The position numbers and the translations under genes are program-made. The notes under the pieces are model-generated. The model did not search any database. It saw only the letters and a program-made list of their open reading frames with translations, and was not told the DNA's origin. 64,000 bases of DNA from Isoetes taiwanensis (taxonomy: Eukaryota; Streptophyta; Lycopodiopsida; Isoetales; Isoetaceae): contig JAJEKV010000111.1 in NCBI GenBank assembly GCA_021234155.1, forward strand, positions 1,618,968-1,682,967, read 5' to 3'. Shown here piece by piece: positions 6,108 through 33,099 of the stretch. Every line of letters starts with the position of its first letter. Position 1 is the stretch's first letter.

Positions 6108-6146
6108 ACCCAACCTTCTCTGCTTCCTTCCCTTATCTTACTCTTC

Positions 6147-7363: not shown

Positions 7364-8067
7364 TGATAGAAAATGAAATCTACTAGATGCTTATCTTTTC
7401 TCAGAATCACAAGCTTATAACTTGTTCAAAGAAACTACAATTGCAATGACTTCAAATGGGAAGGTTATAGACTTAATATTTCAAATTTGCATCTTGATAG
7501 CTACATGTATTTGGCTAGCAAATACATCACAAGGGAGCCACAATTTGGTCTCTAATCCCTTGTGTTCATCAAGTGCACACGTAAAACAATCCAACCATTA
7601 AGCTAAACCTTAGTCATTAATACCAAAATGATACTGTAGCAATGGGATCACTTCGAACACTGTAGCAAACAACTGCTTCAACCTATAGCCATGATTCCGG
7701 CACTGGATTAAGGGTCTCTCCTTCGTTGTGTCTAAAGCACATTGTATTCTTGGTATTTATCTACGATCCGCAGTCGGTTTCGGCCGGATAAACCTGCTAA
7801 CTTGAGAATCTGAAGCTTTCGATATATCCCACATACGTTACAATGAAGAAAGGCTTTTGTATAGAATTATCCCACATGCATTCTTCTAAAATATTAACTT
7901 TGAAACCATTGATTCACAATTCGAACCTTTTATGCTTTTTCTCTTTTCAAGAGATGTAACCATTTCTATACCATTGCACCTTCAAATTCCTATCAAGTTC
8001 CAACATGATCTGAGGTTATAGAACTGCCTTCAACTGGAGAAAGCATTATATGACCTAATTCTTAACA
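7364..8067 (-). repeat. Copia 3' LTR (intact, 704 bp)
   Basis: Starts TGATAG and ends TTAACA on the plus strand. The adjoining internal bases on the minus strand read GAAGGGGGAA, a polypurine tract for plus-strand priming. It matches the split right LTR almost base for base, which is what revealed the insertion point after CATTCTT. Confidence 0.95.
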
Positions 8068-12415: not shown

Positions 12416-12416
12416 C

Positions 12417-12431
12417 CTGGCTCTGATACCA
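12417..12431 (-). promoter_or_regulatory. Copia primer-binding site (initiator tRNA-Met)
   Basis: The minus strand reads TGGTATCAGAGCCAG directly after the LTR end CTATCA plus one base. This is the standard plant copia site complementary to the 3' end of initiator tRNA-Met. Confidence 0.9.
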
Positions 12432-12432
12432 A

Positions 12433-12954
12433 TGATAGAAAATGAAATCTACTAGATGCTTATCTTTTCTCAGAATCACAAGCTTATAACTTGTTCAAAG
12501 AAACTACAGATGCAATGACTTCAAATGGAAAGGTTATAGACTTAATATATCAAATTTGCATCTTGATAGCTACATGTATTTGGCTAGCAAATACATCACA
12601 AGGAAGCCACAATTTGGTCTCTAATCCCTTGTGTTCATCAAGTGCACACATAAAACAATCCAACCATTAAGCTAAACCTTAGTCATTAATACCAAAATGG
12701 TACTGTAGCAATGGGATCACTTCGAACACTGTAGCAAACAACTGCTTCAACCTATAGCCATGATTCCAGCACTGGATTAAGGGTCTCTTCTCCGTTGTGC
12801 ATGAAGCACATTGTATTCTTGGTATTTATCTATGATCCGCAGTCGGTTTCGGCCGGATAAACCTGCTAACTTGAGAATCTGAAGCTTTCGATATATCCCA
12901 CATACGTTACAATGAAGAAAGGCTTTTGTATAGAATTATCCCACATGCATTCTT
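12433..12954 (-). repeat. Copia 5' LTR, first part
   Basis: This covers 522 bp of the right LTR up to the interruption after TTCTT. The remaining 181 bp are at 32771-32951. Together they rebuild a 703-bp LTR matching the intact one. Confidence 0.95.
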
Positions 12955-12955
12955 A

Positions 12956-12979
12956 ACAAAGTTGCGTATTAAACGGGAG
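12956..12979. repeat. Left terminal inverted repeat of the DUF7869/methyltransferase element
   Basis: About 24 bp, with roughly 19 matches to the right end. Just inside, at about 13003-13016, lies the palindrome AAGGAATATTCCTT, which shares the GGAATA/TATTCC half-site of the large arrays. Confidence 0.75.
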
Positions 12980-13378
12980 CAAATCATTGAAACGAGAGCG
13001 AAAGGAATATTCCTTAAAGATTCCCCTTTTTTTTTACAAAAAGGGGGTAAAACGAGGTTAAAAAAAAAAAAGATGCATGAAATTCTATTTTGACCCCCCC
13101 AAAAGTGACTAATTTTTTTGTGCAACGAAAGAATTGACTGTTTGAAAGTGTCATTTTTCTTAGCAAATAGAATGTTCTTGAAGTATATTTTACGTGAGAA
13201 ACCCTAATTTCAGGAGGATAAAATATTTAACAAAAATTGAAGTTAGTCCAGAATGGCTGGCTGTAGTATTCTCAAAATTTGAAGATACAATCTTCATATT
13301 CACAACAAAATTCTGAGTTTTTCTAAGACTTCGAGTTATTATGTGCAAAAGTGTGAGGAGTGATGAAGGAGGGATCCA
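12980..13378. other. Subterminal non-coding region of the TIR element
   Basis: Contains the palindrome AAGGAATATTCCTT, long A and T runs, and the run GACCCCCCCAAAAGTGAC. No gene is seen. It is probably the 3' untranslated and subterminal region of the minus-strand DUF7869 gene. Confidence 0.4.
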
Positions 13379-16300
13379 AAGGCGTCATCATGTTCATTTA
13401 TACCATCCTCATCACCTTCACTTTTTTCTTTGTCACTAGAGGAAGTGCTTGAGTTATCTTCCTCATCACTATCAACAGATGGTGTAGCATTGCCACCACC
13501 TTCTTCATCCTCTTCTTCGTAATTACAAGCTTTTTAAGCAAATTGATAGTCCTCTGGCGTGAGAGGCGATTGTCGATTTCAATTTAAAATCATAGCACAA
13601 TATAGTCCGTCATTAAGGATCAGCTCATCCCTACAACCCACCTTCTTGGACTTTCTTCCTTTTCCTTGGCTTCTCATTTCTAACTCATATCTACCTTCAA
13701 AAGCATTTTTCGATCGTGTTGCAAGCCAATGAATCTTGAGTTTAGTGACTAAGCCTTCCTCCTTGACGGTGTCAAGCACTTTTGCTATCGTAAAAGGTCG
13801 ACCTTTGTCATCCTCCTCGGTTGGAAGAGCAATTAGCATACCCTTGCAAATTTACGTGATATTACCTTGAGGTTCATTCTGCGTCTTGGTCCGAGGTACA
13901 TGATTTCGATCCTCATCTTCTTCTAATGCGGGTGCTAATGTAGCTTTGCTTGGGACCTTAGTCTTTGGGGTTGATGGAAGGTGTTAGGCCATCGAAATGG
14001 TTCTTGCAACTGTCTTAGAGCTATATTTTTCACAACAATTTTCTGTCGAGAAAGAAATTACTCCACCACATCCGATCTTCTTCTAAGAAGTACTTAAAGC
14101 TGAGGAAATTCCATTTTCAATGGCTTTTAAGGATGACTCTGGGGTACTTTTCTTTACGCTTGGACTCCTTAGGATTTTTGAGAGGAAGTTGTTCAAAGAC
14201 GTTCTATGAAGGAAGTGTGCGGAATATATTTAAGGAAGCGTAATCCCTCTTGTGGACTCCGGTCCTTAGTTGTGGTACTTTTTTTCCCACAGAAGAAACT
14301 CGGCCATCCTTCAAGTAGAACTTGATGTGATGTTGAAAGGTGAGATCATTCAACTTGTTCACGGCTTGTTCTCAATGCGAACGTTGAGAGAAAACAAACT
14401 CTACGAAATCAGCAGTCTCTTTAAGAAGATCGATCACCGGGTGGGAGTGTAAGAATCTTCAATAATTGAACTAATGTAGGAAGGGAGAAAGCCTTCTTCC
14501 TTCTAAAGGCGCACAGAAAATCTGCTGAACATCTGGTCAATCTGATCATGAGTGTGGCCTACAAGTAAAAAACCGAGCTTCACTTTTCTAAAGATCCCTA
14601 GCTCCACTAACATAGCACAGTATGCAAAGAGTGTTTGATTCTTGTTCTCCCTTGTAGTATTGTCAAGTTTGCAGTAAAAGCACTTTGGTGGTAATTGCTC
14701 TTGCTCGCTGGGACCTGGTTAAGAATTGTAATTGTGAGGTTCGGGTCACCATGCAAGTTTGGATATGTCAAAAATACTTTGCACTTTAGACTTCCTTTGA
14801 AGACCATAGCTCCTACAAGGTGGACCTTAACAAAACATTCCTCTGGCACATCTTTAGGAATGTTCAAGAAATGTGGTAGAGTAGTTTTTTTTTGGTCCAT
14901 TCCATCAATCAAATGAGACATATATTGCGGCCGGACGTTCAAGAGCTTTTTTTACGTGTTTGGCAAGCTTTCTTCTCTCTCACGCTTGTTGTTCACGATA
15001 TGTCGGCAAGGTTACATTTGCACAATATCTGTAGAAGAAATAAGGTCAAAGCATTTTTTAAAACAAGTGAGAGTTTGAAGAACATGAGCTTACTTCTTTC
15101 GACTTACGTCTTTGCGGTTTCTCTTTGACTTTTTAATTACGCACACCTTGAGCAAAAGCGGACATTACGTGTCTCCTCGAATTTTCACTAAACCGAATTC
15201 ACTTTTCCACAATCGGTGAAGTGTGAGTAAGAGATGTCTTTGAAGTTGAGTGCAAGTCTCTTTGTACTCATTAAAAACATCTTTTTGGTGATGTTATCGG
15301 GTTAAATGATACATGTTCTTTGTTAGGCTGACTTCTCACATGTTTCTCTAAAATATTTCTCCATCCATGACACGGCAGCAAGGGCATGCATGGTTACAAC
15401 TCTTCTTGGTCCACAATGATCATCAATTCTTTGGATTTTTGTCCGATCTTTTGTGTATTCTAGACATTCGGTAGTCCCTAAGCGGTGGACAACCATAAAG
15501 CATTTTCGGCAAACTTCTTGGCCGGTTAATGTAGTGCAAGAAGGTGTTGCGGTGCGGCCTTACATGATAGGCCAAGTAGGCATTCTAGTCAGCCAATGTC
15601 ATTGAACTGTAGTTGTCTCTAATTGCTCGTAATTTAGACATGTTAAATTTGTTGATGCAACCCAATGAGCAGCATTTACTTCTTAAAGTCTTCTCATTTT
15701 ATGCTTTCGTCCATAAGGTTTCTTCTTCTTCTGAGAGGAGCATGCTCTCACACCATAATCCACCTTAAATTTTTTGGTGGGTGGCTAGAAGAACATGTAA
15801 TCTCGTTGCGCCGTTGGTGTCTTCATCTTCGAAGAGAGTTCTACTCGGGGTGACCTCCTCGCCCTTAGTGGTGTGCTTGTAGAGGAGAACAAACCACGTG
15901 AAGTTGTATGAAAAAGGCGGAGGTGCGGTGTTGAATGAAGGAGATGGGCCAGCATATGATGTGCCAAATAAAGTTGTTGTAAGCGTCTTCACGGGGGAGT
16001 TCGATCGAACATCTCTCTTATAGCGGACCCGAAATTTCTGCAAACCCATGTGTCACCACGTTTGTGTGAAGGAGTAGATCTTTGCCGAGGTCGCGTCTTC
16101 ATTTGTAGTGAAATCGTGGTGGGAGAAACGATGGAGAATCTCGCAGATCTTGAGCGCCGAAATGTATTCCTGGCATGTGTAAGTGAAGATGGAGAAACAA
16201 CAAACGGCGGAGGTAGTCTGTTCGAAAAAAAAAAATTTCTCGAGGTCGAGCCATTGTAGTGTCGGGGGATGGAACAAATGGTGGTGGAAGATTGCTACGT

Positions 16301-16548
16301 GCAACAGGTGAGGGTTGGAAAGGTGGTGGCAGCCGGTTTCCTATTGGACTTGGAGAGGGTTGGAAAGGTGGTGGCAGTCTACTAGTTACTGGACTCGGAG
16401 TTTCTTCTAGAAGTAACAAAGACCTTGTCGAGGTAGGTGTTGAAGAAGCATCTCCGTCTTGTGTTCCATCCAAAGTAGAGGTACTTGGGCAAACAAATGG
16501 TGGTGGAAGTTTGTTCACGAAGCGGTTAACCATTTCAAACAACTGCAA
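13379..16548 (-). pseudogene. DUF7869 protein, candidate transposase (copy 1)
   Basis: The gene reads 5' to 3' on the minus strand through several frames. The N-terminus (16548 on) is Pro-rich with a repeated NRLPPPFQPSP unit. The centre at 14942-14740 has LIDGMDQKKTTLPHF and KVFLTYPNLHGDPNLTITIL. At about 14660-14510 comes KLDNTTRENKNQTLFAYCAM, then VGHTHDQIDQMFSRFSVRL. The 13839-13579 frame (MLIALPTEEDDKGRPFTIAKV) and an acidic Glu/Asp/Ser tail at about 13550-13385 close it. The conserved Asp residues (DGMDQ, LDN) and the HTHxQIDQ motif suggest an RNase H-like fold, but catalysis is inference. Several frameshifts break it. A well-conserved relative lies at 61.0-63.7 kb. Confidence 0.75.
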
Positions 16549-16932
16549 AAAATTGTGGGCTTGTTACTAACTCACAAGTCGATTGGACTAATGCTATTCG
16601 AGAATACAAATGCTATTCTGGAATAGTATTCTGTGTGCAGCATTTGCTGTGTGTGTGCAATAATGCTATTCCAGAATACACTTATCCAGAGTGTTTGGAC
16701 AAGGCGTATTCGCATCACATAGAAAAACACAACCGACAGGTTGCCTACCTTTAAAAAAAGGAAAATTGGCGCCTCGATTCGTATTCGCTTCGGGGAGATT
16801 TAGTCGCCCAGCCAAAGCGCCTTCCGATTAATATATATTTGCCGTATTCGATTCACATAGCGAAAACAATGGGGTAAGCATGTAAAAATTACATAGCACG
16901 TCTTTCTTTGGTTTTTCGATTTTGCCACGTAG
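16549..16932. other. Divergent promoter-side region with scattered TATTCC palindromes
   Basis: Between the DUF7869 gene start and array 1. Motifs GCTATTCGAGAATAC, GCTATTCTGGAATAG and GCTATTCCAGAATAC lie at about 16590-16680, so palindromes begin before the regular array. No coding sequence is seen. It may hold the promoter of the minus-strand gene. Confidence 0.5.
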
Positions 16933-16934
16933 GC

Positions 16935-17248
16935 CAAAGTGTATTCGAATACACTTTGCCCATCGGCGAAGAGCAAAGTGTATTACGGAATACACTTTGC
17001 TCATCGGAAGTGCAAAGTGTATCAGGAATACACTTTGCCCTTCGGGTGAAGAGTAAAGTGTATTCCGGAATACAATTTTACTCTAGGCCTGAAGGGCAAA
17101 GTGTATTCCGGAATACACTTTGCTCGTCTCCCGATAGGCAAAGTGTATTCCGGAATACACTTTGCACTTCGCCAGTGAGCAAAGTGTATTCCAGAATACA
17201 CTTTGCTCTTCGTTTGATGGGCAAAGTGTATTCTGGAATACATTTTGC
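16935..17248. repeat. Palindrome array 1: eight copies, ~41-bp period
   Basis: Eight palindromes start at about 16935, 16973, 17012, 17055, 17096, 17138, 17179 and 17221. The core is GTGTATTCCGGAATACAC, with arms extended to GCAAAG...CTTTGC. Copies at 17096-17123 and 17138-17165 are perfect 28-bp palindromes, and that at 16935-16958 is a perfect 24-bp version (TTCGAA centre). Spacers of about 13 bp vary freely, so the palindromes are what is conserved. All but one have a CpG at or beside the dyad. The CACTA inserted 27 bp beyond the last copy. Confidence 0.95.
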
Positions 17249-17290
17249 TTGTAGTTTTGAGAACGCTTGCTTTTTCACTACTACAAAAAT

Positions 17291-17720
17291 AGGTATAAAT
17301 GGCACAATTATGTGCCATTTTTCCCCTATATAAATGGCACTTTCTGGGTGTGCCATTTGTGCATATTTGTGCCGTAAATGCTCCGCCTTTTTTGTGCCAT
17401 TCAAGTGTGGTCAAAATATGTGCCATTTAATTGACATGTGTGTGCCATTTAAGTGACTTGTGATTGTGCCATTTAAATGACATGCATTGTGCGACTTAAA
17501 TGCCATTCAAGTGACATGCATTGTGACATGTATGTATGGTGCATGTGCCACTCAAGTGCCATAAGTATGACACGTATGTGTAGTGCTTGTGCCACTAAAA
17601 GCATTTAAGTATGGCATGTATAAATAGTGTTTGTGCCACTCAAGCGTCATTAATGTGGCATGCATATGCCATTCAAGTGCCATGAAAGTGTGACATGAAT
17701 GTGTGGAGTGATTGCCATTT
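17291..17720. repeat. CACTA left subterminal repeats
   Basis: Over a dozen copies of TGCCATTT, or variants TGCCACT and TGCCATTCAAGTG, in mostly direct orientation. Such subterminal motifs are the binding sites of the TNPA-type protein in En/Spm elements. Confidence 0.85.
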
Positions 17721-17914
17721 TCATATTCATTAATGGAGAATAGTTGTTTTATGGTTATGTGAACAATGTTGAATAGTATTTTTATAAAGTGAAATACAAT
17801 AACAAAATATTCATTAAAATGTCATGTCATGGATACAATAATAGTAAATAGAATGTCAAATGTCATGTGGGTACAATAATAGTAAATAGAATGTCATACA
17901 CAAGGACCCAATGT

Positions 17915-20900
17915 TTATTGGGCAATACGACTCAATAAAGATAATGGCCAAATGATCACCGAGTTTATCGCATCCTTGAATGTCGTAAGTTCGCTTGTTG
18001 GATACAACAACTGATCATTCAAGTGCCCAGGATTTATGCCTTGAACCATAATAGAAGCATTACCATTGCCAATTGGTTGACAGTGACAAGTTTTCTTTGG
18101 ATCTAACGAGAAAATCCTTCCATGTCCAATGACTGATTTATTTCTCAAATCAAGAATTTGGACTTCGTTGTTTTCCTGTAATAAATGGACCAATAAAATG
18201 TCACATGTTATTTTTGAAAAGTTCAAAAAATCAAAACATAGATATAGATGTTACCTGTAAATCCTTTTGGACATGTTTTGTTGGCAAACACTGTTTTTTA
18301 AACTTGGGAATTGCACTTCCCTAATATTCAAAATGTAAATTACAATTAACGAAATTCTCATAGTTCATTAAATAGATGCTACTTTACCTGGCTTCCAATG
18401 GATGCTTCTTTGTTGATCACTTTCCTCACGGCCTGTATCATTATTATATAAAGGATTGATGACATTAAATGAGCAAGGACAATCGTTCGAGATGGTTTAC
18501 TTACCTGGCTTCCAACAGATGCCTCTTTACAAATCACTTTTCCCATAGCCTGGATATTTGTTATATAAAAGATCAATGATATGAAGTGAGTAAGAGCAAC
18601 CAAAAAAGATAATTTCGCAGTACCTGGCTTCCAACTGATGCTTCCTTGTTGATCATTTTTCTTGCAACCTACGTAATTAATTTGTAAAGGATTGATGGCA
18701 TAGAAAAATGCAAAAATATATGACAAAGATATTTTCACAATACCTGGCTTCCAACTGAGGTTTCTCTACTCGTTACCTTTCCCAAAGCCTATTGTAAAGG
18801 ATTAAAAATATAAGGTAAATAGAAACAATTAATGAAGATGTTTTCACAATACCTCTTCTTTTGTATCTTCTTCAAGTTTTTTCTTCTTAGCAGATAAGCT
18901 TTCAATCTGTTTATGCAACTCTAGAAGCATAGATTTGGCATCATTCACCATTTGTGTAACATCACCTTGAGTTTCTCTAGGCTCTTCGAAGCTTTCATGA
19001 AGAGCAATTGGCTTCTTGACACGTTTGCATGTAGCTTTCACATTGAATGAAGGTGACGGATGTGCACATGTACCCTAAAATTCCATACAAAGAAGATAAA
19101 TAGAAACATATAGTCACCACATAATTTAAAGGATCAAGAAAATGTAACCTTACGTTTGATTTCTCTTCCCAATCTAGTGTCTTGGCTCCCCTTGGTAAGT
19201 TCCCATATCCTTTAGAGGTATGAGCTTCATTTGCAATTTCAGCTGTGGTTGGCGACCTTTGCATCTTTTTTTTCTACAATTTTGTAATCAAGTGAATTTT
19301 ACACATTAACATGACACTTACCAAGTAGATGGAAATTTAAGATTGACATTCTTACCAAATGCATGTATGTTCCAGCATAGCCACTTCTTCCAGTGTTGTT
19401 AGTAACTTTTTGATCTGCTCGGTTCTTTTTGTTGCGACTACTGGAGCTCTGAAGAATATTAGCAATTTAGTATTTTACATCAAAAATTATTTATAAAGAT
19501 ATTAAACAATATAATATTTTACCTTGTATTCGTTTGTCTCCATATATGCAAGAAATCTAAACCACGTGTCATTCTTCATCCAATCTGGCTTTATTGGCTC
19601 TTCATTATTTTTTCGAGCTCTCAAGACCTTATTGCATACACTCCTCCTTGCCTCTCTAATACCCTTAGAAAGGCGTGTCCGCCAATATTTTTTGTCCCAC
19701 TCAGCCCATGGTATAACAAACCAATCCTGCATTCATGAAATAAAAAATCACTTTACCTATTTTGCTTAAAAAGAAATATAAAAAGCTTTGAAGATGTCTA
19801 TTTTATTTAATGAGAAATAATTAGAAAGCTATGTATTTTTAATTAAAATCACCTATTTTTAATTAAAGTCACCTGCAATGTTCTTCGTACAAGGTCCAAC
19901 TGCCCCTGGGGAACTTTTCTCATGTCCGAAATGGACAGATCAACATGTTTTTTGATGAGTAAATTTAGTTTTCGATCAAAGTAATTCTTATAGGCACCAC
20001 ATGGGATCATTTCACCATCAAGTTCCAATTTGTATGGTCTTTCCTCTCTTACAATTGCCCTTATAGCATTATTTGATAATCTTCTTAGGTGGTTCCGCCG
20101 TGCTCTTTCATAGTTGGGTTGATGCTCTTCGCCTTTATTTTGTATATTCCCTCATAAAAAGTTAGTAAGTAAAATAAATAAACTAGAAAAAAAATAGAAT
20201 CTTGCACAAATGTTAACTTATTAGGATACAAACAAATACAAAATCTTGATCTTGAAGAAACTATTTAAAGCATAATTTTAAGGCAATTGATTTTGCATAC
20301 TCAACAAAACTGTTAACCCGTACATTGGACTGATTCCAATGGAATTGAACCATTGGAATTCATTCATTATGACACCATGCAAGCATTAGTTGCTTAAGCT
20401 ACAACGTAATGATTCAACCCAAAATAAAGTTTCCACTATTCAGTATGACTTCATCTATCAGAAAAGCAGACGAGCTTCTCTACCTATAACCATGAGTGGG
20501 ATATCCTGCACCCATAGCAGTACAAAAAAGAAACACTTCTATGTTGTGTCTTTGTGAAAGATGTGCATGCATTTTCCAGACTATCACAAGTTCCATATAT
20601 TTTAAAGTGGCAGAACCCGATGCCAACTCTGATTTTATGCCACTATAACAATGTCTGCATAATCTTTTGATCATAACAAGCACCTTATATGAAAGATAAA
20701 CCATATCCTTTAACAAATACTGACCTTGATGATATTCAGCTGCGCCGTGACCTTGATCTGGAACAACAGGTTCGAGTCTGCCACGCTGCCCCGACAGATT
20801 AATATTCCCTGCCAAAACACGCAGATCACAATATGAGCGAATCGAGTATACAAGATTTCAATTGTCTTTATGCAATTCCCCTACTTTGCCACAGTTGTGA

Positions 20901-21085
20901 CATCAACATCATGTTGGCAACTGGGATTTATGGAAGTCTCAGCTTACATCACACAAGAAATCTTAGCAAAGTTTAACAAATACTGACCTTGTTGATATCC
21001 AGCTGCACCTTCACCTTGCTCTGCAACAACACTTAAAGGAGGTTCGAGTCTGCCACTCCTCTCCAATAGATTGATATTCCCTGCC
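17915..21085 (-). CDS. CACTA accessory protein: Transposase_24 (Ptta/En/Spm) with DUF8039
   Basis: A multi-exon minus-strand gene. The order is two similar Gly/Glu-rich exons (20990-21083 and 20723-20812); a Transposase_24 region at about 19732-19380, with WDKKYWRTRLSKGIREARR, W-F-R-F-L and RNKKNRADQKVTNNTGRSGY; a Lys-rich coiled coil (18853-19074); four 45-nt repeated exons (18388-18788); and a DUF8039 end at 18226-17915 with GHGRIF, CQPIGNG and the closing IIWPLSLL. In En/Spm elements the TNPA-type protein binds subterminal motifs and helps the transposase. Splice sites are mostly good, and intron positions were judged by eye. Confidence 0.8.
18388..18788 (-). repeat. Four tandem 45-nt duplicated exons
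   Basis: Exons at 18744-18788, 18624-18668, 18505-18549 and 18388-18432 are each exactly 45 nt. Each has AG before and GT after and encodes a 15-residue unit of the form A-x-G/R-K-V-x-x-K-E-A-S-V-G-S-Q. The period is about 118 bp, so exon plus intron were duplicated together. Skipping any one keeps the frame. Confidence 0.85.
20723..21083 (-). repeat. Duplicated exon pair in the CACTA accessory gene
   Basis: Exons at about 20990-21083 and 20723-20812 both begin GNINL and continue with S-G-R-L-E-P. Both end in G-A-A-x-Y-x-Q-G-Q before a GT donor. Their flanks also match (CCCTGCCAAAA and GCAGATCACAA). Together with the 45-nt exons, this shows repeated exon duplication in this gene. Confidence 0.7.
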
Positions 21086-22237
21086 AAAAAATGCAGATCA
21101 CAAATATTTAATGTTGAACTTTAAACATTAAAGAAGTGAAGCATGTCTTTATGCAAATCCATCTTTAAGGTACAGAATCTGGCTTTTATGTTCTGCTAGA
21201 GTAAATCCCAGCAACCTATAAATATCAGAAGTTTGCATGCAGAAACAAGTGATGGGGCTTCTGTATAAATCTATTGGATATCAGTCTGGGAAGGGTGAAA
21301 ATGAGCCTTGAACAGCTTTAGGAGGCACAGGCCTTATGCCTGCTATCTGTAATTGCTTCTCATGACAGTAAATCCAAAGTAGCATCTTGAGATTAATAAT
21401 ATTTATCTTCTTATTTCCAAAGGTGGAAGTTGAAGAGAATGGAAGTACATGGGTCTTAACTCTGCCTTAACTAAGTATAACCACAGTGTTTTTGCTGAAG
21501 CTAAACACTCTTCGTGTTGGGCTACAAAGACAAGATTTCTGTGACAAACAAGGTCATATTAAGAGACTGTCCACGACATTTGGAAATATGTCAAGTGCAA
21601 GGACCAACCATACCACAACCAATGAGATGAAATGAATCTCAACTTTAGCAGCAAATTTCCATTTGGAATATTTTTGATAGGCTGCAAGTTTGATGATTAC
21701 AAAACCCTTCATTATACACAATACTGCTGCCAAAAGTGCAATGCTGGAAATACCAAAGCAACTTTCTGGATAGTACATGAGACTCTGGACTATTTTTTAA
21801 TATTTGGGGATTCTTTGATGTTTTTATAACCAGATTCACTTGTACTACTTTACTCCAGCACCAGAAATTAGAATACATTTATATTTTTCACGACGACCAA
21901 GGCAAGTAACTGCAGCGCAAGTGCCAGGTTAGTTGTTTAAACGTTTTGTCAAGCTACATGTCACTAAATCTTACCTCAATTAAAGCGCTACACCATCAGG
22001 ACAATAAAATGCCAGTCTTAGATAGAAGAGCATATATCCTCCTTGTCTTATGATTTAAAATAATTCTGTTCTTGAATAATGACTGGAAAAAGTGCAAGAT
22101 ATATTGGGAATAAATCTATCTGTGTCCTAATGCCTAGAAGCTGGACCTCATGCTACGTACTCTTCAACATAACAAAACGCTTGTGTAAGCATTCGTGATC
22201 CAATTGCTAAAATGATTTGGCACTAATGTTAAATTCA
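21086..22237. other. CACTA central region, left part, no gene recognised
   Basis: AT-rich sequence between the divergent CACTA genes. A minus ORF at 21554-21778 is hydrophobic but has no support. It probably includes the promoter of the minus-strand gene and intronic sequence of the captured armadillo gene fragment. Confidence 0.35.
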
Positions 22238-22553
22238 GGAACTGAAAAAGAGCAATATGCTGCTGTTGTTGCATTGCTTAAGCTAACTATGGACAACCCA
22301 ACCAAGGTTCTGGCATTAGTTGAGAATGAAACTAATCGTTTAGTTGTCTTAAGCAGGATAATGTCATCTGAGTCTTCACTGGAATTGAGAGTATATTGCA
22401 GATCTTTGCAGAGTGTTGTTTGCAAATGCCAAGATACGATCAAAAGTGGCTGTCACAACCTGCATCCAGCCTGTGTTATGATCAGCATGTGTTATGCTGC
22501 TGTTCTTGCTCTTGACGCTTTAGTGGATGATGAACAACGTGTAGAACGATTCT
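22238..22553 (+). pseudogene. Captured armadillo-repeat fragment resembling plant CSI1
   Basis: After a splice-acceptor-like TTCAG, the frame reads GTEKEQYAAVVALLKLTMDN, then a P-T-K-V-L-A-L-V stretch and RIMSSESSLEL. A one-base shift then gives ADLCRVLFANAKIRSKVAV and T-T-C-I-Q-P-V-L. Another shift gives ALDALVDDEQRVE. The series KEQYA...LxxLxxxNP...RIxSS...AAxLCxVLFxNxxIRS...LDxLVDDEQ matches my recollection of armadillo repeats in CELLULOSE SYNTHASE INTERACTIVE 1, which links cellulose synthase to microtubules. At least two frameshifts and no continuation mean it is not functional. It is probably transduplicated genomic DNA, since the acceptor is retained. Confidence 0.65.
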
Positions 22554-24334
22554 GAGAACAACTCTGTTATCTTTGTATGTCATTTGGCGGCATGCCTTTC
22601 TTTTCGGTGCATATGTTTCCTGACCGCCGCAAGTGCGAGGGTTGTGATGATTGCTTGAAATTCCTGTTTGGACTTAGGCACTGGCATAGAGGCTATGATG
22701 TGAAGGACTTTAATGGTGCAAGCGATGCTCATGGTTGTAGATCTTGACAGGTGTAAATAAGATTGTGGCTTTCTCAGAACCTTATTTCAACAAATGGTGT
22801 TTATATGCTAACATTGTACACATTCCTTGGTCATGATGACCTGGAAATATGTGTGTATGTGCATATATGTGCTCATACATGGCACTGCATTAGACATTAA
22901 TATACTGTAAAAGCTCTTTGGGCTTTTTAGTGGATAATATTCCACCCTTCCAATTAGCAGCGCTTGATCTGAAGTTGAATCAGCAGCAGGTCAACCAACT
23001 TACCGACATGATTTAGAGAAAATGGCTGTTTGTTTCAAGAAAATAGTTGAACCATACCACGGAGTTATTTACAAAAAGAAGGTTTTATTTGGATTATTTT
23101 CTGAATATCTCAACTGACGTGTTCATTAAAAGACCTGGATACTTAACATAGACCTCCCAAACAAGATGAGGTTTTCAATGGGACAGTTCATGGTGTCTTC
23201 TGACCAATTGGAAATCGAGGTTAGAAGGGCTAAGCATGTTAATTGGGGACAGCCTACGGCAGAAGGCACTCAAGACTGCAGGTGTAACGTTGTTCTTGCT
23301 GTCTAAGAGGTGCGAAAAACAAGTGATGGAGCATCCAAGAGAAGAACAGAATGGAATGCCAAGAGAAATGCTTAACTCTTAAACATCTTAGTTCGAAAAA
23401 TAGTTCTTTTCCATTGTTGGACATGATCTTCCCCTACCTCGACATGGTGTTACAGGGTATCCAAGTGCCCTACATTACATGGACAGGTTCCATGATGCCA
23501 TTATCAAGATTTCCTATCAAAGTAGATCTTGAGGTGCTAGAGAGTAGCGTCTCTACCTAGCAGTGCTACAGATCTTGAAGTGCTAGAGAATAGTGCCTCT
23601 AGTAGCAATACAGAATGTCTGGATGCCATTTATAATGACAATTATGCTACATAAGCACCACAATTTTGTATATCCTCTGAGCAGCTGAATATGCAAGAAT
23701 TTACAGCTGAATATGCAAGAATTTACAGATGAATTTATGTATTCTTTACGGCAATTATATCTGGACCTTCTGCATTTTTTTCACAACAGATAAAGCTTGT
23801 GCTGCTTCTGTGCTCCAGCGACGGAGGTGCAATGTGCCATAGCCAGCAAGCTACTCCGGCGGCATAGCAACAACAGGACGCCCGCTTGCTTGTCAAGTCA
23901 GTCTTTTTTTTCTCTTTTTTCTTATTTTTTTTTTAAAGCTCGATTTTTTCCTCAGAAAGGTACGTGTCAGTTTTAGGAAAATCATCAATCAAGAATATTC
24001 TAAAAGCATATTTGTAGGAGAATTATATATGTTAGAAAAGATGCATTTGTTTAAATTTCCCTTCAGTGTGCAAAAATTGAAACATGTAACTCGTAGATGG
24101 AACTTGACCTATAATATCACACTAATATACTGTGTATTTCCAAATATTCCTCTTGTAGAAAGTGGAAATAGGCACACTAATAGACCCTGATGTTCCCGAT
24201 GTTCCATCCCTTAGAGATGACTCATAACTTGTAGTTCCACCATATAATGCATGTAATGCTAATTACCTATTACTTTTATGATACGAAATTAACCTCTATG
24301 GATCATGTTGATGATCCTAAAAGCGTTGAAGAAT
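22554..24334. other. CACTA central region, right part
   Basis: No gene recognised. It includes a 46-bp-spaced repeat (about 23526-23556 and 23571-23602, sharing GTGCTAGAGA) and a 24-bp tandem repeat with ATGCAAGAATTTACAG at about 23690-23735. A plus ORF at 23351-23560 has no match. It may be decayed captured sequence and the TNP2 promoter. Confidence 0.35.
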
Positions 24335-27300
24335 TGAAGCCAAGCCATAAAAGATGGAGTTTCAGTTGTGGAGTGCCCATGTACAAAATGCAACGGAAAC
24401 AAATTGAAGTCACTTGATGACATTCATCGGCATCTCAAATGTAATGGTTGGAGTCAACAATTAAAAGAGGTGAGAGAACCTTCAAATTTCCATATTTATC
24501 TTTTAGCACGTGTCTAGTTTAAAATTACAACCATTGCAGGACACTAGATGTAAAGATACAGTGTCTCAAACAATTCAGGACACCTTCATGGTAATTGATA
24601 ATGATTATGAAAGTCACGTACCTTTGGAAGGTGCTAGGGATAATTTTCCAGGTAGAAATGTAAGTGAAAGTCCAATTGTTGATGGAGATCAGATAACAGA
24701 TGGAGATCAGATAACAGATGAAGATCCATTATGTGATAACACTAGCGACCCATTAAAGCCATTATATGATGGAAGTTCATTGAACATGTTATCTGCCGTA
24801 CTTCTGATTCTTGATCTGAAGACTATGCATGGATGGTCAAATTCTAGCCTTGATGATCTTCTAAAAGTTTTGGGAGGACAGTTGTTACCCAAAGGAAACT
24901 TATTGCCACGATCATCTTATTATGCACAAAAATTGATGAAGGATCTTGGTCTGGAGTATGAATCTATCCATGCTTGCCCAAATGATTGTATTCTGTATAG
25001 AGGGGAGTATGCTAATCTTGAGTCTTGCCCTAATGAAAAATGCCAAGAAAGCCGATGGGGCAAAAAAGGCAAACCTAGTGCACGTAAAGTTGTGCGTTAC
25101 TTCCCTGTCGTACCTCGACTACTGAAATTATATGAATGTCCATCAATGGCAAGACACATGACATGGCATGCTAACAATGTAAGTAAAGATGGCATTTGCA
25201 GGTATGTCTCTGATTCACCAGCGTGGCAGCACATCAACAACATGTGGCCTGACTTTGTTGAAGACCCCCGCAACATTAGATTTGGTTTGGCATTTGATGG
25301 CGTAAGCCCGTTTAGTGAGATGAGATCTAACTGGAGTACTTGGCCTGTTATGTTGGTAAATTACAATATTGAACCATGGTTAGCTACAAAGCCGCATTTT
25401 ATTATGTTGACATTGTTGATTCCTGGACCACAGCAAGTACCTTCTTCAAAAATTGATGTTTACATGAGTCTTATTGTGGAAGAGTTCCATAAGCTTTGGG
25501 AAGGAGTAAAAGCATTTGACTTCAGCAAGCCTATTTTGGAGAGGGAATTCACCTTGCGTTCAATGATCATGTGGACTATACATGACTTTCCTGCATATGG
25601 TTTGTTGGCAGGATGTGTAACCCATGGATATCGAGCATGTCCCCACTGTGGACCTGATATTCATGTTCGCAAGTCTAGCAGTCTTAGAAAATTTATTTAT
25701 GCAGGCCATCGCCGATATCTCCCCATTGATCACAATTTTCGGAGAATGAAAGTATTTGATGGGAAAGTTGAATTTGGAACAGCCCCAAATCTTGCGGAAC
25801 CTACTGATATACAAAATTGGATAATGGAAAAGGAAGAATGGGAGAGAAAGGAGTTGTCTCGAAAAGAATTGAAACAAAAAAAGAAACTTGATGATGCAGA
25901 TGATGATCCAGTGAAAAGGACGGGGTGGAAACGCCTTTCTATATTTTATGAGCTTCCATATTGGGAGGTATGTCATGCTTGCATATGTATATATGTACTT
26001 AGTAACTTATGTCATTACGTGTACTTATCTTATTTCATATTACATATTACAGCATCTTCTTATCCGAAACACACTAGATGTGATGCACGTGGAGAAAAAT
26101 GTTGCAGAAAATATAGTTAAAACAATACTTGGAGATGCTGACAAGGACAATGAAAAGGTACGAGAGGACATGAGAGAGATTGGAATTCGTGAGTCCCTCT
26201 GGTCTCAATCACAAAACGGTAAAGTTATTTTACCTCATGCTCCGTATGTTCTTACAAAAGAAGAAAAAAAAGCTTTCTTTGCTGTTATACAAAGTGTGAA
26301 ACCTCCGACAGGATTGTCCTCTAACTTCAAAAAATGTGTTGCAAATGGAAAGCTCAAATCGATGAAATCACATGATTATCATATTCTTCTTCAGCAGTTC
26401 CTTCCTTTGGCTATACGTGATTGTCTAGGAGAAGGAGAAAGAATGTCAATATTAAGACTCAGTGCTTTGTTTAAGCAAATTACTGCAAAAGAGATTCATT
26501 TGAGTGAGATGAGTAACTTGAAGAGCGAAGCTGTGAATGTGTTATGCTTGCTTGAGAAGCATTTTCCGCCATCTTTTTTCACGATCATGACACATCTCAT
26601 CATACATCTAGTAGAAGAGCTAGCTATTTGTGGGCCTGTGACTGCACGATGGATGTATCCCATTGAGAGATTCTTAAAACATCTCAAGAAATATGTTCGC
26701 AACATGGCATATCCAGAGGGATCCATTGCTGAAGGATATATAATTAATGAAGCAATGACTTTCACCACCATGAAGGAGGACAAAAATATTGAACTTTTAG
26801 GTGAATATGATGGTGTCTTGGAGCGTAACACATCTGAGGTTTTGGAAGGCAAAGGAACTTTGATAAAGTTGGATGTATCATTGAGACAACAAGCACATGA
26901 ATGCATTCTAGCAAATTCAACCATCATCAACACATGGAGATTGTAAGTATTCAGTTTTATAATTTAGATTGATGTGCTTTAATGACAAAGTTAACTTTCA
27001 ATCTGTTAATAATAGAAAATATGATCAATCACAACATGGTGTCTTTTAAAATTTACCGAGGGAGCGGGTTATGAACTTTCGAGTGGCTTAAAATGGAAGT
27101 CCAGCGTATGGTTCAAAATGAGGAGCAAGTAGATCCATTGTTGCTTGACCTTGCTTTTGGAGTTGAAGAATATGCTACAAGTTATAAAAGCATGTGGGCA
27201 TATGGTTGGCATTTACGAGTGCAAGACTTAGACGCAAAGCAAGTGACACAAGATTCAGGCATTTCTGCAATATTTCAATCTACGAGCCGTAGTAGTGCTA

Positions 27301-27810
27301 AAGACAAGCGTCCAATTGAAGCTGACATAGAATATTTTGGCAAAATTCAAATGATTCTCTGAGGTTCTATTAGTACTTGTAAATATATTATTAATACTAT
27401 AGTACATTTAATTTATAACACTAATTCTTTTTTCGTGGTTTTGTAGGTCTGTCTTGGTTCATCGCATGTGGTGCTTTTGCAATGCCATTGGTATAGGCCT
27501 GATATTATTGGACAACGAGCATCTACAAAATTTGACAAGTATGGCTTTCAACTGGTGGACACTACAAAAGCTGCATATAAATCTAATTCAAGTTCTCAAC
27601 CCTTTGTCTTTCCAGAACATGTCCAACGGGTAAAACGCAATTATAGTTTCTTACTTGCAATAATTTTTTTGTGAAATCGTCTGGTTAAGCATTTAAATAT
27701 ATGCAGGTTTTCTATTTTGACGATCCACATAACGTAGGTTGGTCTATTGTGCTCCGAAACCCATCTCGTAGATGGGCTAGTACTTACGATGAAAGTGAAA
27801 AAGTAACTTG
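24335..27810 (+). CDS. CACTA transposase, TNP2/Transposase_21 type with DUF4216
   Basis: At least five exons are visible. About 24357-24470 encodes the N-terminal zinc-finger-like Transpos_assoc domain (CPCTKCNGN...H...C). 24539-25964 and 26053-26945 encode the TNP2 core: ACPNDCILYRGEYANLESCP, FDGVSPFSEMRSNWSTWPVM, TIHDFPAYGLLAGC then YRACPHC, and LDVMHVEKNVAENIVKTILGD. Exons at about 27093-27362, 27448-27630 and 27705-27810 give the DUF4216 region (HVVLLQCHWYRPD...FVFPEHVQR/VFYFDDPHNVGW). Introns at 24471-24538 and 25965-26052 have clean GT-AG ends. The core exons have no internal stops, so it may be intact. It cuts at the CACTA ends. Confidence 0.93.
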
Positions 27811-28084
27811 ATGACATCGTGTATTTCATAAATCTTGTAATATATCTCTCTTTCATTTTTGTAGTTCAAAGGACATCACAAGTGCAATTTAATTCAATTT
27901 TACGATTCTAACATTGTAATATGATAATGTATGATCTTATAAATTAAATAAGAAACAAAGTGAAGTTTACTATTGAATTTAGTATGCTTCTACTTTTTCA
28001 CTATAGCAATATTATAACACAATAAATGAGGAGTTTTATAGTTACACTTAAATCAAAGATATAGATAGTTGCCCGTATGATTAC

Positions 28085-28590
28085 ATGGCACTTGTATATA
28101 TGCCACTTGTATTGAACAAATGGCAAAAGTCCCACCACACTTTAATGGCAATTAGAAGTCACTTATACAAGTGTCATTTGTTCATCTGCAAATGGCACCA
28201 ACAAGCAGCACTAACATGTCACTTATAAGTTTGTCATTTACGTCGCTCAAAATGGCAAAACATTGCCCACACTTAGATGGCACATTCAAGTCACTTAGAC
28301 ATGTGACGTTTATTGCAACGCAAATGGCACAAATAGGCAGCACTTATGGGGCACTTACATGACACTTATTAGTTTGCCATTTATGTAGGTCAAAATGGCA
28401 AAACATCGACCACACTTAAATGGCACATGCAACACACTAATCTATGTGCCATTTATAAGGCAAACAAATGGCAACATAAATGTCGCTTAAATGGCACATA
28501 CTTGTCACGTTTTGTTATGTGCCAATTACAATGATACAAATGGCAAATTCATGAAATTGTGCCATTTCTTCGTGCCATTTATGCACATTT
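28085..28590. repeat. CACTA right subterminal repeats
   Basis: Numerous AAATGGCA and ATGGCAC motifs, inverted relative to those of the left end, spaced about 20-40 bp. They extend to the right terminal inverted repeat. Confidence 0.85.
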
Positions 28591-28826
28591 TTGTAGTAGT
28601 GTTTTTACTAAAATCACACACTTTTTAGCTGCAACAGACAACATTTTATGTTAAAAATTACTCTGTTAAGTCTAATTTAGATACACAAAATTGACTTAGA
28701 CAGACAACATTTTAGCTTGTTTTCTTGTCTTTTTCTGGCCTTTAGGGCATAAGATTAGCAAATGTTATTCTGGAATACAAATTTCTTTTGCATTTCTGTC
28801 TTAACATGGTTGTTTTAAACGTTTCA

Positions 28827-29484
28827 GTGGCAGGGAAGAAGGAAGCAAGAGGGCATCAAAGAAATCTCATAAGCCTAAGCGTCCACACCCACAAAAGCAC
28901 ACCGCTGACACGGACGAACCTGCTATTTACGAAAACTTTCAAACGCAGTGGTTCGTAACCAGGGGGGCAGATGGAAAAAATACAAAGACACCGACGCTTT
29001 TTATGCGCCCAGTAAAAGTGCTTGGTAACAAAAGGTCTGTGACTCCATGTTTGTTAACCTTGGGACAATAAAAGATGTCTCCGAGGTTTTGGGACAAGGA
29101 GGTCAAACGGGAGGCTATCCTTCAAGACCTCCCAAGGCTTCATTGTTGTGGACCTTGCATTCTTTAAAATTGTCGGTGTGCAACCACCGATTTGTACAAA
29201 TTTTTTTCACACTACCGGCTAAAACGAAGCCCGTGTGTTCATTAATTAAGCAGTTTTTTCCAAAGACTGGCGAGGACTTTCTGTTAGTGAGTCCGAGCAA
29301 TCGGATGGAGAAAGATCGCGAATCACCACCTTCTCCTAGTTACGCTAGTTCTTGGGGAGGTCATCGGATAAAGGTTTTGAGGAAGAAGAGGAGGAAGAAC
29401 CCCTGCGCGCCAAAGAAACTTAGCACGCTAAGAGAGACCATAGTCGCTAAAGAACCAAAGAAGAGAAAAACACAGCTGACTTGA
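28827..29484 (+). pseudogene. ParB-methyltransferase gene, N-terminal coding region
   Basis: An acceptor (AAACGTTTCAG) precedes a frame rich in Lys/His/Pro (SHKPKRPHPQKHTADTDEPA) with FMRPVKVLGNKRSVTP. Another frame overlaps at 29047-29484 and contains NHRFVQIFF and a highly basic KKRRKNPCAPKK segment. No domain is recognised. By position it is the N-terminus of the methyltransferase protein. The preceding intron-like DNA has one palindrome half (GTTATTCTGGAATAC, about 28763-28777). Confidence 0.5.
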
Positions 29485-29639
29485 AATCATAGAAGTCCCC
29501 GAGGAACCTAAGAAGAAGAAGGGAAAGGGTAAAGCACCCTCGGTGTTGCTATTAAAAAAAAAAAAGTTGATAAAACATCTGAAAAATGGAAGAGATTAAC
29601 CCGCACAAGTTTGTGCAAGGTGTCATTTATTTTGATCCA

Positions 29640-30215
29640 CTTCAATGAAGCTTCCTCCAAAAAATGAAGCTGGTGAAAGGCCACTTGTGTTCGCAAAATT
29701 TATGCCGATCACTTGAGGAACCCGAAAGACGAATAAGGAGCAATCCAAATGCTCATGTGGCCCCAATAGTTGTCCTTGTTGATTGAGGGACCGGTGCATA
29801 ACCCCTGTGAGTATGACAGAGAAAATGCCGACACCTACACTCACTACGCCTTGGGAGGGAATCATAGCTTCAAGGCAAGAAGGCAACTTTACAAAGAAAA
29901 GAAGAACCCGAGGTACCCTCCGGCCCCTCTGCTGCTTCATCGTGGTCTTACAGATGAAGAAGCAAAAATCGTTGCCAACACCCACAATGTCGACATAACG
30001 AAAGTACAAACTAAAGATGAGCTTTGTCGACAAGATCCGGTTTATGCAATGTGGAGTAACGTAATTTTCAAGGAAAAGTACGGTGAGGACCTGAAGAAGC
30101 CCGGCGTTTTTCCTTGGAGCTTAAGGAGGCGTGTGCCATTGAATCTTCTGCCTCGAAATATGACGAGGCCAACAAAAGGCGCTCTCTTATTCCCCACAAT
30201 AACCGGTTCCGGTTA
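29640..30215 (+). CDS. ParB-like domain of the ParB-methyltransferase protein
   Basis: The main frame (29770-30216) contains YALGGNHSFKARRQLYKE, then GLTDEEAKIVANTHNVDIT. This is the ParB/sulfiredoxin-like pattern: a GGxHS/R loop with basic helix, followed by a G-L-x-D-x-E-A helix. Upstream in another frame, GERPLVFAKFMPIT is the likely preceding beta strand. ParB-like domains bind CTP or act as nucleases in bacteria and phages, and they are sometimes fused to DNA methyltransferases. The C-terminal part (DPVYAMWSNVIFKEKYGEDL) precedes a GT donor at about 30235. Assignment is by motif only. Confidence 0.55.
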
Positions 30216-30282
30216 GCTTTTAGAGATGGCAAGGTAAGCACAAAATGTATTCCGTAATAGCAAACCAACTATTTGGCGTGAA

Positions 30283-30530
30283 ATCTGCTTGAAATGATTT
30301 GGGAACTCCGGGACCGTGATATTCACAATGTTCGGCGAGGGGAGTTAAAGAGCAAGGACAAGGAGACGCCCAAGAAAAAACCCCGGACGTGCCCAAAAAA
30401 GAAATGACCATTACCGATGCTGAGGGAAATGCGTGGCTTCTCCGATTACGTAGATTTTGGAAAGGCTTCTCCAAAAAGTTGTTGACAAGGAGTTTAGCCT
30501 AGAAGAAATGTCAAAGGAATTGCACAAGTA
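30283..30530 (+). CDS. ParB-methyltransferase gene, linker exon
   Basis: The frame reads MIWELRDRDIHNVRRGELKS, a basic K-K-K-P-R-T-C-P-K-K stretch, and ITDAEGNAWLLRLRRFWKGF. It ends with a donor CACAA/GTAAGA at about 30528. The intron that follows holds palindrome array 2. Confidence 0.5.
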
Positions 30531-30590
30531 AGATCTCGCCACAAACTTTGCTCTTTAGGCGTTAGAGTCCCAAAAACATCGTGGTAGATA

Positions 30591-30863
30591 GTGTATTCCG
30601 AATACACATACCTTTCTTCACTTATAGCGTGTATTCGAAATACACAATCTTCGTTCTAGAGACAAGCAATGTGTATTCCGAATACACAATGGACATGTAA
30701 AGGAAGCCATGTGTATTCGGAATACACATGTCCTCTTCTAAAAAGTATTGGTATTCCGGAATACACATTGCTTTTTCAGAGAAGCAATGTGTATTCCGAA
30801 TACACAATGCATTTTGTTTCGAGGTAACATCACCCAGTTAACCCGGTTTGTATTCGTAATACA
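30591..30863. repeat. Palindrome array 2, inside an intron, ~40-bp period
   Basis: Palindromes start at about 30591, 30629, 30671, 30711, 30751 and 30789, with a further degenerate one at about 30849. The typical unit is GTGTATTCCGAATACAC (17 bp) and the copy at 30751-30764 has the even GTATTCCGGAATAC. The period of 38-42 bp matches array 1 although spacers differ. The array lies in an apparent intron (donor about 30528, acceptor CTTGCAG at about 30946) between the ParB-like and methyltransferase coding parts. Confidence 0.92.
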
Positions 30864-31080
30864 TTTAGCTTGACTTTTATTTGTTTTTCTTCTTCTTTGC
30901 CTTGTTTCTTACTTTTTTCACTCATTGTTTCCTTAACGTCTTGCAGCCAAAAGAACGTCATAACATGTCAAACATGTTTGATGGAGCAGCCTAAACGTAG
31001 AGACATGGGAAAGGTGCAAGGAACTCTACCCCACAGAGCCACTTCGACTCGACGAGCTTAATTGTGCAATATGCACCAAA

Positions 31081-31650
31081 TTTTGAGGGTTGGGTAAGTA
31101 CTCTCAACATTATTCGCCTTTGCACACACGATCTCCCTTACGATTTTGTTGTCATGTTTTTCTCGAGCAAAAAGAAAAAACAAAGACCTTCCCGAGGGCT
31201 TCATGCATTTGGTTAGAACAAAGACGGGAAGAGAGGTTAGGAATCGAAAGAAGAACTGCTTGAGTTAGAACCATCCGATTCTGAGAGATTGGCATGTTTG
31301 ATCAAAACAATTTATATTCAATCATTCATGGTGATTGCACGAACCTAGTCGGAACGGTTAAGCCACAGGACTTCACTTTGGTTATTGCTGATCTTCCCTA
31401 CGGGTTTAAGCTTAAAGAAAGCAGATATGACGACCAGCCCTTCAAATTTTCAGAGTTTAATGCTTTTATTGATGGAATCAAGCAGATCACAACGGCTAAA
31501 CATTGGCGTTTAGTTACTTTCCATTCGAGCATGCAGCCTGGCTTGGTAGAATCAGCTTTCAAAAACCACTTTGGTTCTCCAGTTCAGGCAGGATATGAAA
31601 ACTTTGTTGCGGAAAGTCTTATTCCGAATCTGATTTACTTTTCTCTTTGA
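31081..31650 (+). CDS. DNA methyltransferase, N-terminal half (motif IV)
   Basis: From 31294 the frame gives IIHGDCTNLVGTVKPQDFTL, then VIADLPYGF. This is the catalytic motif IV of N4-cytosine/N6-adenine DNA methyltransferases (D/N/S-P-P-Y/F/W), here DLPY with Leu in the second position. A helix-rich stretch with WRLVTFHSSMQPGLVESAF follows. The exon ends near 31650. A 92-bp intron-like gap containing GTGTATTCCGAATAG precedes the next coding part. The upstream frames (31081-31290) look coding but are shifted. Confidence 0.7.
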
Positions 31651-31742
31651 TTACGAGTGTATTCCGAATAGTATTTCCCTTACGGTTTTCGAAGTGTGTT
31701 CTTGTTTTGGCTAAGTAAACATCACTTTAAATGTTTTACTAG

Positions 31743-32415
31743 GTACAAACTAACATCAACTACCATGGTGGAGGACCAAGGTTGCTTAGCAAGGTAGAGT
31801 ACCTTCATGTAGCTTATTGGAGTTTTGATGGGAAGAGGACCATGGAACACTTCAACACTGCCGCCTGTCAAAACTTCTCAAACGTCCTTGAGTTTCAAAG
31901 CAGTTGTTACGTAAATTGCAGGACCCAACCGCAAAGGCGAGTGATTGTGAATCACTACCGGAAACCACAAAAGCTCATCAACCATCTCACGGACATGTTT
32001 CGGCCCGTGAGACCGGGGTGCTTGATGCTTTCTCTATGGTTCTGGTACTACTATCGCATGTGCACTTAAGAAGGGCCGCAACTGTGTAGCCGTGGATATT
32101 GATAAGGATGCTGTTAATTTTGTGAAGATGAGACTGGCTGCCTTACCTACTTTACCAGATGAACATCAAGAGCTAGGGGCCAAGTCTTCATCTGATTATG
32201 CTAAACTAACATCCTCAGAGATACAGCCTCCATTCTCCAGCTCACTAGACGATGAGGCAACCTTTGCAGAGCTTAAAGAAGTAGCTTTAGCTACCATTCC
32301 AGAGGACAAGGAGGATACAAAACTCAAGTCTCCAGCAAAGGAGCAGATAGAACAGAAGGACGAGATGGCAGAGAGCAGCAAAAAGAATGAGGAGGACTAT
32401 GATGTAGATCTTTGA
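31743..32415 (+). CDS. DNA methyltransferase, C-terminal half (motif I) and acidic tail
   Basis: Starts after an ACTAG acceptor. It contains VNHYRKPQKLINHLTDMFRP (the helix before motif I in such enzymes), VLDAFSM, and after a frame change GSGTTIACALKKGRNCVAVD, the AdoMet-binding motif I (D-x-F-x-G-S-G-T-T). A charged Glu/Lys-rich tail ends EEDYDVDL at 32415. Motif IV before motif I is the beta-class order seen in PF01555 enzymes. One frameshift near 32035 separates DAF from GSGTT. The tail is eukaryote-like and its terminator lies 350 bp before the TIR. Confidence 0.75.
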
Positions 32416-32722
32416 CTACTGCATATTAAAATTATCATTATTTATTACAATGAATCTTCAATATTGATGTACAACAATTTATTAAAAACATAGTACTTTT
32501 TTTCCTTTCTATTCTGGTGCTTGTTTTTTGTAATGCTTTCAGTCTCTTCAAGTCTATGCCTAAATTTCGCTATTTTTATGATTTCTGTTTCATAAGTACA
32601 AAGTTTTCGTCTAATAATGGGCCAAAATGGCATGAAAAAAAATGCAAACCTCTAGAAATTCTTAACAACTATCAAAAAAGGCTTATTTTAGAAACTTGGT
32701 GTTTTTTTAAAGGGAATCTTTG
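32416..32722. other. 3' region between the methyltransferase gene and the right TIR
   Basis: AT-rich non-coding sequence, probably the 3' UTR and subterminal region. No palindrome array is seen here, unlike the inter-gene region. Confidence 0.4.
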
Positions 32723-32765
32723 AAACGGGAGTGATGCAACACTCCCGTTTAATTTGCAATCGTGT
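32723..32765. repeat. Right terminal inverted repeat with hairpin
   Basis: The end carries an 11-bp perfect inverted repeat, AAACGGGAGTG / CACTCCCGTTT, with a 6-base loop (32723-32750). It is followed by the terminal arm that pairs with the left end. The left end has AAACGGGAG plus a degenerate second arm (GAAACGAGAG). Confidence 0.75.
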
Positions 32766-32770
32766 TTCTT

Positions 32771-32951: not shown

Positions 32952-33099
32952 ATATCTAACTACTTTTGCTCCAAATATGCCAGCATCTTTTCCCAACCTG
33001 TTGATACCCCTAATCAAACTGTTGAAGCCAATTCTTTTTCAGATATGATCAACAATAATGGTCTTCAAAGTGACACTGTTATGCCCCATGCCATAGAGG

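Follow-up and report, generated by a model that had tools for sequence, protein, structure and literature searches.

A multicopy transposon of Isoetes taiwanensis with divergent DUF7869 and ParB-like/DNA methyltransferase genes

Introduction

Why would a plant transposon carry a bacterial-type DNA methyltransferase (MTase) gene? The question is raised by a stretch of 64,000 nucleotides from the lycophyte Isoetes taiwanensis (GenBank assembly GCA_021234155.1, contig JAJEKV010000111.1, positions 1,618,968 to 1,682,967; hereafter the window), in which a DUF7869 gene and a ParB-like/DNA methyltransferase gene lie between a single pair of terminal inverted repeats (TIRs). We found that this unit is a multicopy two-gene TIR transposon, and that both genes are under purifying selection between families. 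The preservation of a bacterial-type DNA methyltransferase by selection suggests that the element's DNA may be chemically marked by its own enzyme. It is disputed whether N6-methyladenine (6mA) and N4-methylcytosine (4mC) have real writers in eukaryotes beyond a few lineages, and a multicopy plant transposon with a selected gene of this type offers a concrete, testable writer with candidate targets and many substrates.

Structure and insertion of the element

A sequence-only reading of the window had described a TIR-bounded unit inserted as a whole into a long terminal repeat (LTR) of a copia element, with a 4-5 bp target site duplication (TSD), and had called for a search for further copies and empty sites. 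The features that bear on this are as follows.

12955..32766, no strand: whole TIR transposon, with TIRs, 4-bp TSD and an empty site, alignable to 20 fetched copies
12955..12979, plus strand: left TIR, 25 bp, AACAAAGTTGCGTATTAAACGGGAG, starting at 12955
32742..32766, minus strand: right TIR, 25 bp, CTCCCGTTTAATTTGCAATCGTGTT, ending at 32766
12951..12954, no strand: left TSD copy, TCTT, from TSD analysis and empty-site comparison
32767..32770, no strand: right TSD copy, TCTT, from the same two analyses
7364..8067, plus strand: partner LTR of the host copia, an empty site with a single TCTT that matches the joined flanks
17276..28601, plus strand: nested CACTA, a later insertion foreign to the element (CACTACTACAAAAAT termini; PF02992 at 1e-65 in 24507-26120)

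The left and right TIRs are identical at 20 of 25 positions, the termini read AACAAAG, and subterminal AAACGGGAG repeats lie near the element ends. The host copia's other LTR matches the joined flanks at 97.3% identity over 704 bp, running straight across the junction with one TCTT; this is the empty site that had been sought, and it places the insertion inside the copia LTR. Together with the TIRs and 4-bp duplications shared by other copies, it bears out insertion as a unit. Two details changed: the right end falls at 32766, one base past the 32765 first proposed, and the duplication is 4 bp long, the supposed fifth base being an ambiguity of one T. Without the nested 11.3-kb CACTA the element's own DNA amounts to 8512 bp. 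The order of insertion is copia first, then the DUF7869/methyltransferase element, with the CACTA last.

Copies in the genome

We searched the genome (1,658,258,908 bases in 1110 contigs) and examined 21 copies, namely the window copy and 20 fetched copies of its subfamily. Fourteen of these had two readable ends (12 via an exact pattern, L014 and L016 by eye), and every one of the 14 has a perfect 4-bp duplication, each different, so further copies with matching ends do exist. L015, L020 and L025 hold insertions and extend past the fetched stretch, which leaves the right end unread, the right end of L027 is unread where its contig stops, and the match in L010, L021 and L023 stops short of the right end. 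Genome candidates, which are counts unconfirmed as copies, numbered 1580 for the left kilobase of the element (40 scored, all 91-100% identical), 10354 for the DUF7869 core (150 scored, giving 151 matches) and 3311 for the last MTase exon (150 scored).

L030 belongs to another family (G000:C907). L028 is about 79% identical to L019 in its right, ParB/MTase part and about 93% in its left part, and is possibly a recombinant between families. In L029, the sequence after the start of the second gene (5421-8460) has no match to the element and, judged by its frames, is possibly a retroelement insertion.

Gene pairing and selection between families

Four tblastn test blocks, one for DUF7869, one for the ParB-like part and two for the MTase exons, were all present in 16 of the 21 copies; the exceptions (L015, L020, L023, L025 and L027) lack some or all right-hand blocks. 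Among the matches listed, 150 for each gene, 40 of the MTase matches have a DUF7869 match no more than 30 kb away, where 0.8 would be expected by chance, and 38 of these 40 pairs are divergent, with a gap of 5.0-5.5 kb in 20. Because each list stops at about 150, the 110 listed MTase matches that have no listed DUF7869 partner are no evidence on pairing. The proposal of two divergent genes within one TIR unit is thus upheld.

Selection was assessed from differences at codon positions 1/2/3 between L030 and the majority consensus of the window's family. These fall mostly at third positions in the DUF7869 core (12/8/52), the C-terminal, probable BAH part (7/10/28), the ParB-like part (21/16/102) and the two MTase exons (22/7/98 and 21/21/81). 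L028 gave 25/20/99 for ParB and 30/22/73 and 21/28/77 for the MTase exons, but only 14/8/18 for its DUF7869 core, and the DUF7869 core of L029 gave 10/5/91.

The DUF7869 gene

13330..16533, minus strand: predicted DUF7869 transposase gene, limits approximate, frames broken in the window copy; homologous to L019 frames and to a 987-aa open frame, L029:949-3909, minus strand
14350..15060, minus strand: DUF7869 core, predicted RNase H-like domain with three aspartates, limits approximate; PF25273 in L019

A DUF7869 gene on one strand had been expected, and it is a minus-strand gene whose sister copy L019 matches PF25273 at 2e-50; tblastn covered 226 of the 230 core residues in the window copy. 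Besides DUF7869, a Pfam scan of the 987-aa protein returned nothing but a weak match to RFX (E 2). Its predicted secondary structure follows the DDE/D (RNase H-like) order, beta1-beta2-beta3-alpha-beta4-alpha-beta5-alpha, and places acidic residues on beta1, beyond beta4 and in the helix that follows, as in DDE/D enzymes. The protein is predicted from this model to be the DDD transposase of the element, and its C-terminus is probably a BAH chromatin-reader domain. We propose in this way a catalytic function for DUF7869, so far a Pfam family without an assigned role. A viral origin of DUF7869 was unsupported: among viral contigs, 98 pattern stretches yielded no confirmed relative, and a viral fold library gave no match below 0.001.

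The ParB-like/DNA methyltransferase gene

28820..32415, plus strand: ParB-like/DNA methyltransferase gene, several exons, limits approximate; homologous frames in L013, L018, L019, L023 and L030
29600..30233, plus strand: ParB-like part, exon end at a GTAAG donor; motif GGNHSFKARR ... LTDEEAKIVANTHN in sister copy L013, profile support weak
31285..31650, plus strand: methyltransferase exon with a DPPY-type motif (ADLPYGF), from motif and tblastn
31743..32415, plus strand: last methyltransferase exon with an S-adenosylmethionine-binding motif (DAFSGSGTT in L018 and L030)

The exons of this gene have GTAAG-type donors, and in the window copy its frames are broken. The methyltransferase that had been read in it is confirmed by PF01555, which matched one natural frame of L018 at 3.7e-11 (43.8 bits against a cut-off of 26.7) and a joined L013/L018 query at 4.2e-12 (46.9 bits); the window's own open reading frame, 32026-32415, scored 0.0013, below the cut-off. 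The joined query also matched phrog_67 (1.3e-12) and, over its residues 50-296, CcrM (6pbd; 1.1e-7). ADLPYGF stands ahead of DAFSGSGTT, which is of the FxGxG type, and a DPPY-type motif before FxGxG is the beta-class order. By motif and profile, the product appears to be a beta-class DNA methyltransferase of the adenine-N6 or cytosine-N4 kind.

The ParB-like part, compared by eye, resembles the motif boxes of the ParB family, and its profile scores are weak (phrog_723 ParB-like, 0.32; PF20188, 0.013). Protein searches with the ParB/MTase gene returned none at E <= 0.001 among 5134 candidates and none at E <= 1 among 203 candidates. Against phages, tblastn of the ParB part found no match; the MTase part matched 530 phage records, each at <60% identity, and in the two records inspected the methyltransferase is annotated as a gene of its own (843 and 714 bases).

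Palindrome arrays

16980..17241, no strand: GTATTCCGGAATAC palindrome array between the divergent genes, spacings 80, 43, 42, 41 and 42 bp
30591..30809, no strand: a further array of related palindromes, within an MTase gene intron

In the whole window there are 10 palindrome matches at <=2 mismatches, compared with 0.07 expected. The pattern GTATTC(0-3)GAATAC occurs 15 times in L019, 11 in the window copy and 9 in L013, on a background mean of <=0.003 (300 first-order Markov sequences per copy); it is present in 20 of the 21 copies, and at least eight times in 18 of them (L015 has 6, L027 2 and L025 0). Most intervals shorter than 130 bp (99 of 162) measure 41 or 42 bp, about four helical turns. 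At <=2 mismatches, L030 has three palindromes in each place at 41-42 bp, plus two more, and L029 has eight at less regular spacing in the part covered, which stops short of its methyltransferase. Since L030 and L019 share 67-73% identity in their ParB/MTase halves, the arrays look constrained. Palindromes in the divergent promoter and the methyltransferase intron, kept in related families, are new here, and we regard them as the leading candidate binding sites of the ParB-like/MTase protein. The nested CACTA sits between the first array and the second gene.

Frame damage and methylation footprint

To describe the broken frames, we counted sites with small indels in at least four copies (n=106) over 5365 coding positions, leaving out L028. 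CAG/CTG was touched by 62 of these 106 recurrent sites against a 16% background (p 4e-24) and CG by 21 against 9%, with no enrichment of GAC/GTC, ACA/TGT or GAG/CTC. However, a control, GCA/TGC, was also enriched (30% against 14%), and CCGG was not (2 of 106). Substitutions touched CAG/CTG in 59% of cases, and long homopolymers contribute to the damage too. The genome report describes an assembly built with nanopore reads (PMC8566536), so miscalled bases at methylated CHG probably account for part of the frame damage. We infer that the indel pattern reflects nanopore error at 5-methylcytosine in CHG and CG, partly perhaps real mutation at methylated sites, and therefore host methylation of the copies; by this signature they do not look fully shielded. 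The recurrence of indels at CAG/CTG also tempers any reading of the copies as dead. The footprint, seen in the coding blocks of L009-L028, may exaggerate how damaged the repeats of this genome appear.

Proposed explanation and alternatives

The ends, the duplications, the empty site, both genes within the TIRs, the selection and the palindrome arrays are observed; the catalytic roles, and the accessory protein's palindrome binding and methylation of the element, are what we infer. The explanation that we favour, with moderate confidence, is a cut-and-paste transposon with a DUF7869 transposase and an accessory ParB-like/MTase protein that binds palindromes and methylates element DNA. The transposase, with its predicted RNase H-like DDD core and probable BAH C-terminus, would create the 4-bp duplications. 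The accessory protein, encoded by the divergent second gene, would join a ParB-like part to a beta-class methyltransferase for adenine-N6 (or cytosine-N4). It would bind GTATTCCGGAATAC at both arrays, the one in the divergent promoter and the one in an intron of its own gene, and methylate element DNA, so that the promoter may stay active or host silencing may be countered. Self-marking, shielding and licensing by the methyltransferase are hypotheses. A wider version is unlikely in our estimate: a self-run DNA-marking system with palindrome recognition, parS-like spreading and 6mA/4mC that gives young copies a non-host epigenetic state, carried since early land plants or algae by a separate DUF7869/BAH superfamily.

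Several results weigh against the favoured explanation. Pooled copies of the window subfamily show no codon-position bias in the DUF7869 core (124/140/135) and only a mild one in ParB (123/156/199) and the MTase exons (73/94/95 and 118/115/169), and DUF7869 variants common to at least three copies show none (18/21/19); this pattern would be expected if copies decayed once inserted, moved in trans or were misassembled. The ParB-like domain of the sequence-only reading stands by motif resemblance and fails by profile, as PF02195 gave nothing above cut-off genome-wide, though the control matched in 11 of 14 genomes; its sole match, at C1105:237209, had an E of 1.49, below the cut-off. That the methyltransferase gene is passive captured cargo would accord with the finding that none of the 20 fetched subfamily copies has both genes in whole frames in this assembly. 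We consider this highly improbable, given the divergent pairing, the many MTase exons whose frames stay open for 220-245 aa, and the strong third-position bias between families in ParB and both MTase exons, a signal that contradicts the idea unless it stems from something outside the element. That a DUF7869 element and a separate methyltransferase element came to be nested by chance might be suspected from the CACTA that does sit between both genes in the window, but the same TIRs and 4-bp TSDs surround both genes in copies without the CACTA, which refutes it and leaves it a negligible chance.

Alternatively, the palindromes might be sites for the transposase or for a transcription factor of the host, with the methyltransferase acting elsewhere, for example at the ends, where it would time or license transposition. 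One array does lie in the shared promoter, a usual spot for regulator sites, and the subterminal AAACGGGAG repeats are separate candidate transposase sites, so we hold this to be plausible, if somewhat doubtful; the second array in the MTase gene's own intron, and the presence of both arrays in L030 at 41-42-bp spacing, point rather to the product of that gene. We see even chances that the element is a land-plant Sola1, with DUF7869 as the Sola1 transposase and the ParB-MTase as the accessory gene noted in Ectocarpus Sola1-1. Sola1 duplicates 4 bp of target, which is what all 14 readable copies of the 21 show. Sola2 likewise has a 4-bp TSD (PMC3627910), Sola1 is listed for Physcomitrella (PMC9033089), and Sola1-1_Ec32, where described in PMC12477816, has the same layout. 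If EnSpm elements also hold a ParB/MTase gene, as we suppose, sharing it would be no proof of kinship.

Neighbouring features

The host copia lies on the minus strand (window 7364-12954 and 32771 onward), and the 97.3% identity over 704 bp is that of its two LTRs. The nested CACTA has Transposase_21 and DUF4218 frames and subterminal repeats. LINE-type reverse transcriptase fragments (RVT_1) adjoin the copia LTR at 33097-34514, and long open frames run at 4686-7376 on the plus strand and 44423-48758 on the minus strand.

Relation to known systems

Two other placements were rejected. CACTA/EnSpm disagrees with the AACAAAG termini and with a 987-aa protein free of PF02992 at E <= 10; piggyBac and Kolobok, which duplicate TTAA, disagree with the 14 duplications, which all differ and include TTAA once. 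Members of the DUF7869 family from Ceratopteris, Riccia and Cymbomonas, and one with a Ginkgo-style identifier, are 27-47% identical over the aligned part. Our searches of the open-licence literature turned up no land-plant case of a ParB/MTase transposon, no account of DUF7869 as a transposase, of a BAH tail or of phased palindromes, no paper naming DUF7869, and none that links BAH domains to transposases.

CcrM (6pbd) and other beta-class N6 methyltransferases share the motif order of the element's enzyme and match it in sequence. The CcrM target, GANTC, is absent from the element's palindrome. Bacterial Bce_0392 (PMC5512222) similarly fuses a ParB domain, said to nick DNA non-specifically, to an adenine methylase; it is prokaryotic and lies outside eukaryotic transposons.

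The closest likeness is to Sola1-1_Ec32 of the brown alga Ectocarpus, which, in the part of PMC12477816 that describes it, carries a ParB-like gene with an N4C/N6A DNA methyltransferase opposite the transposase strand. We liken the two by gene layout: the alga's element measures 21.5 kb, against 8.5 kb in this lycophyte, and that part of the source mentions no palindrome arrays. The same source states that ParB-methyltransferase genes occur in algal transposons, and the elements of Petroll 2025, as cited there, have the same type of accessory gene and are likened by that type. Given these algal precedents, there is no support for the claim that TIR elements with a ParB/methyltransferase gene were undescribed; since the idea and the gene type are already in print, the element is not unprecedented. 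We regard it as a variant of a published kind, with the role of its second gene a matter of hypothesis, that extends the accessory-gene theme of algae to land plants.

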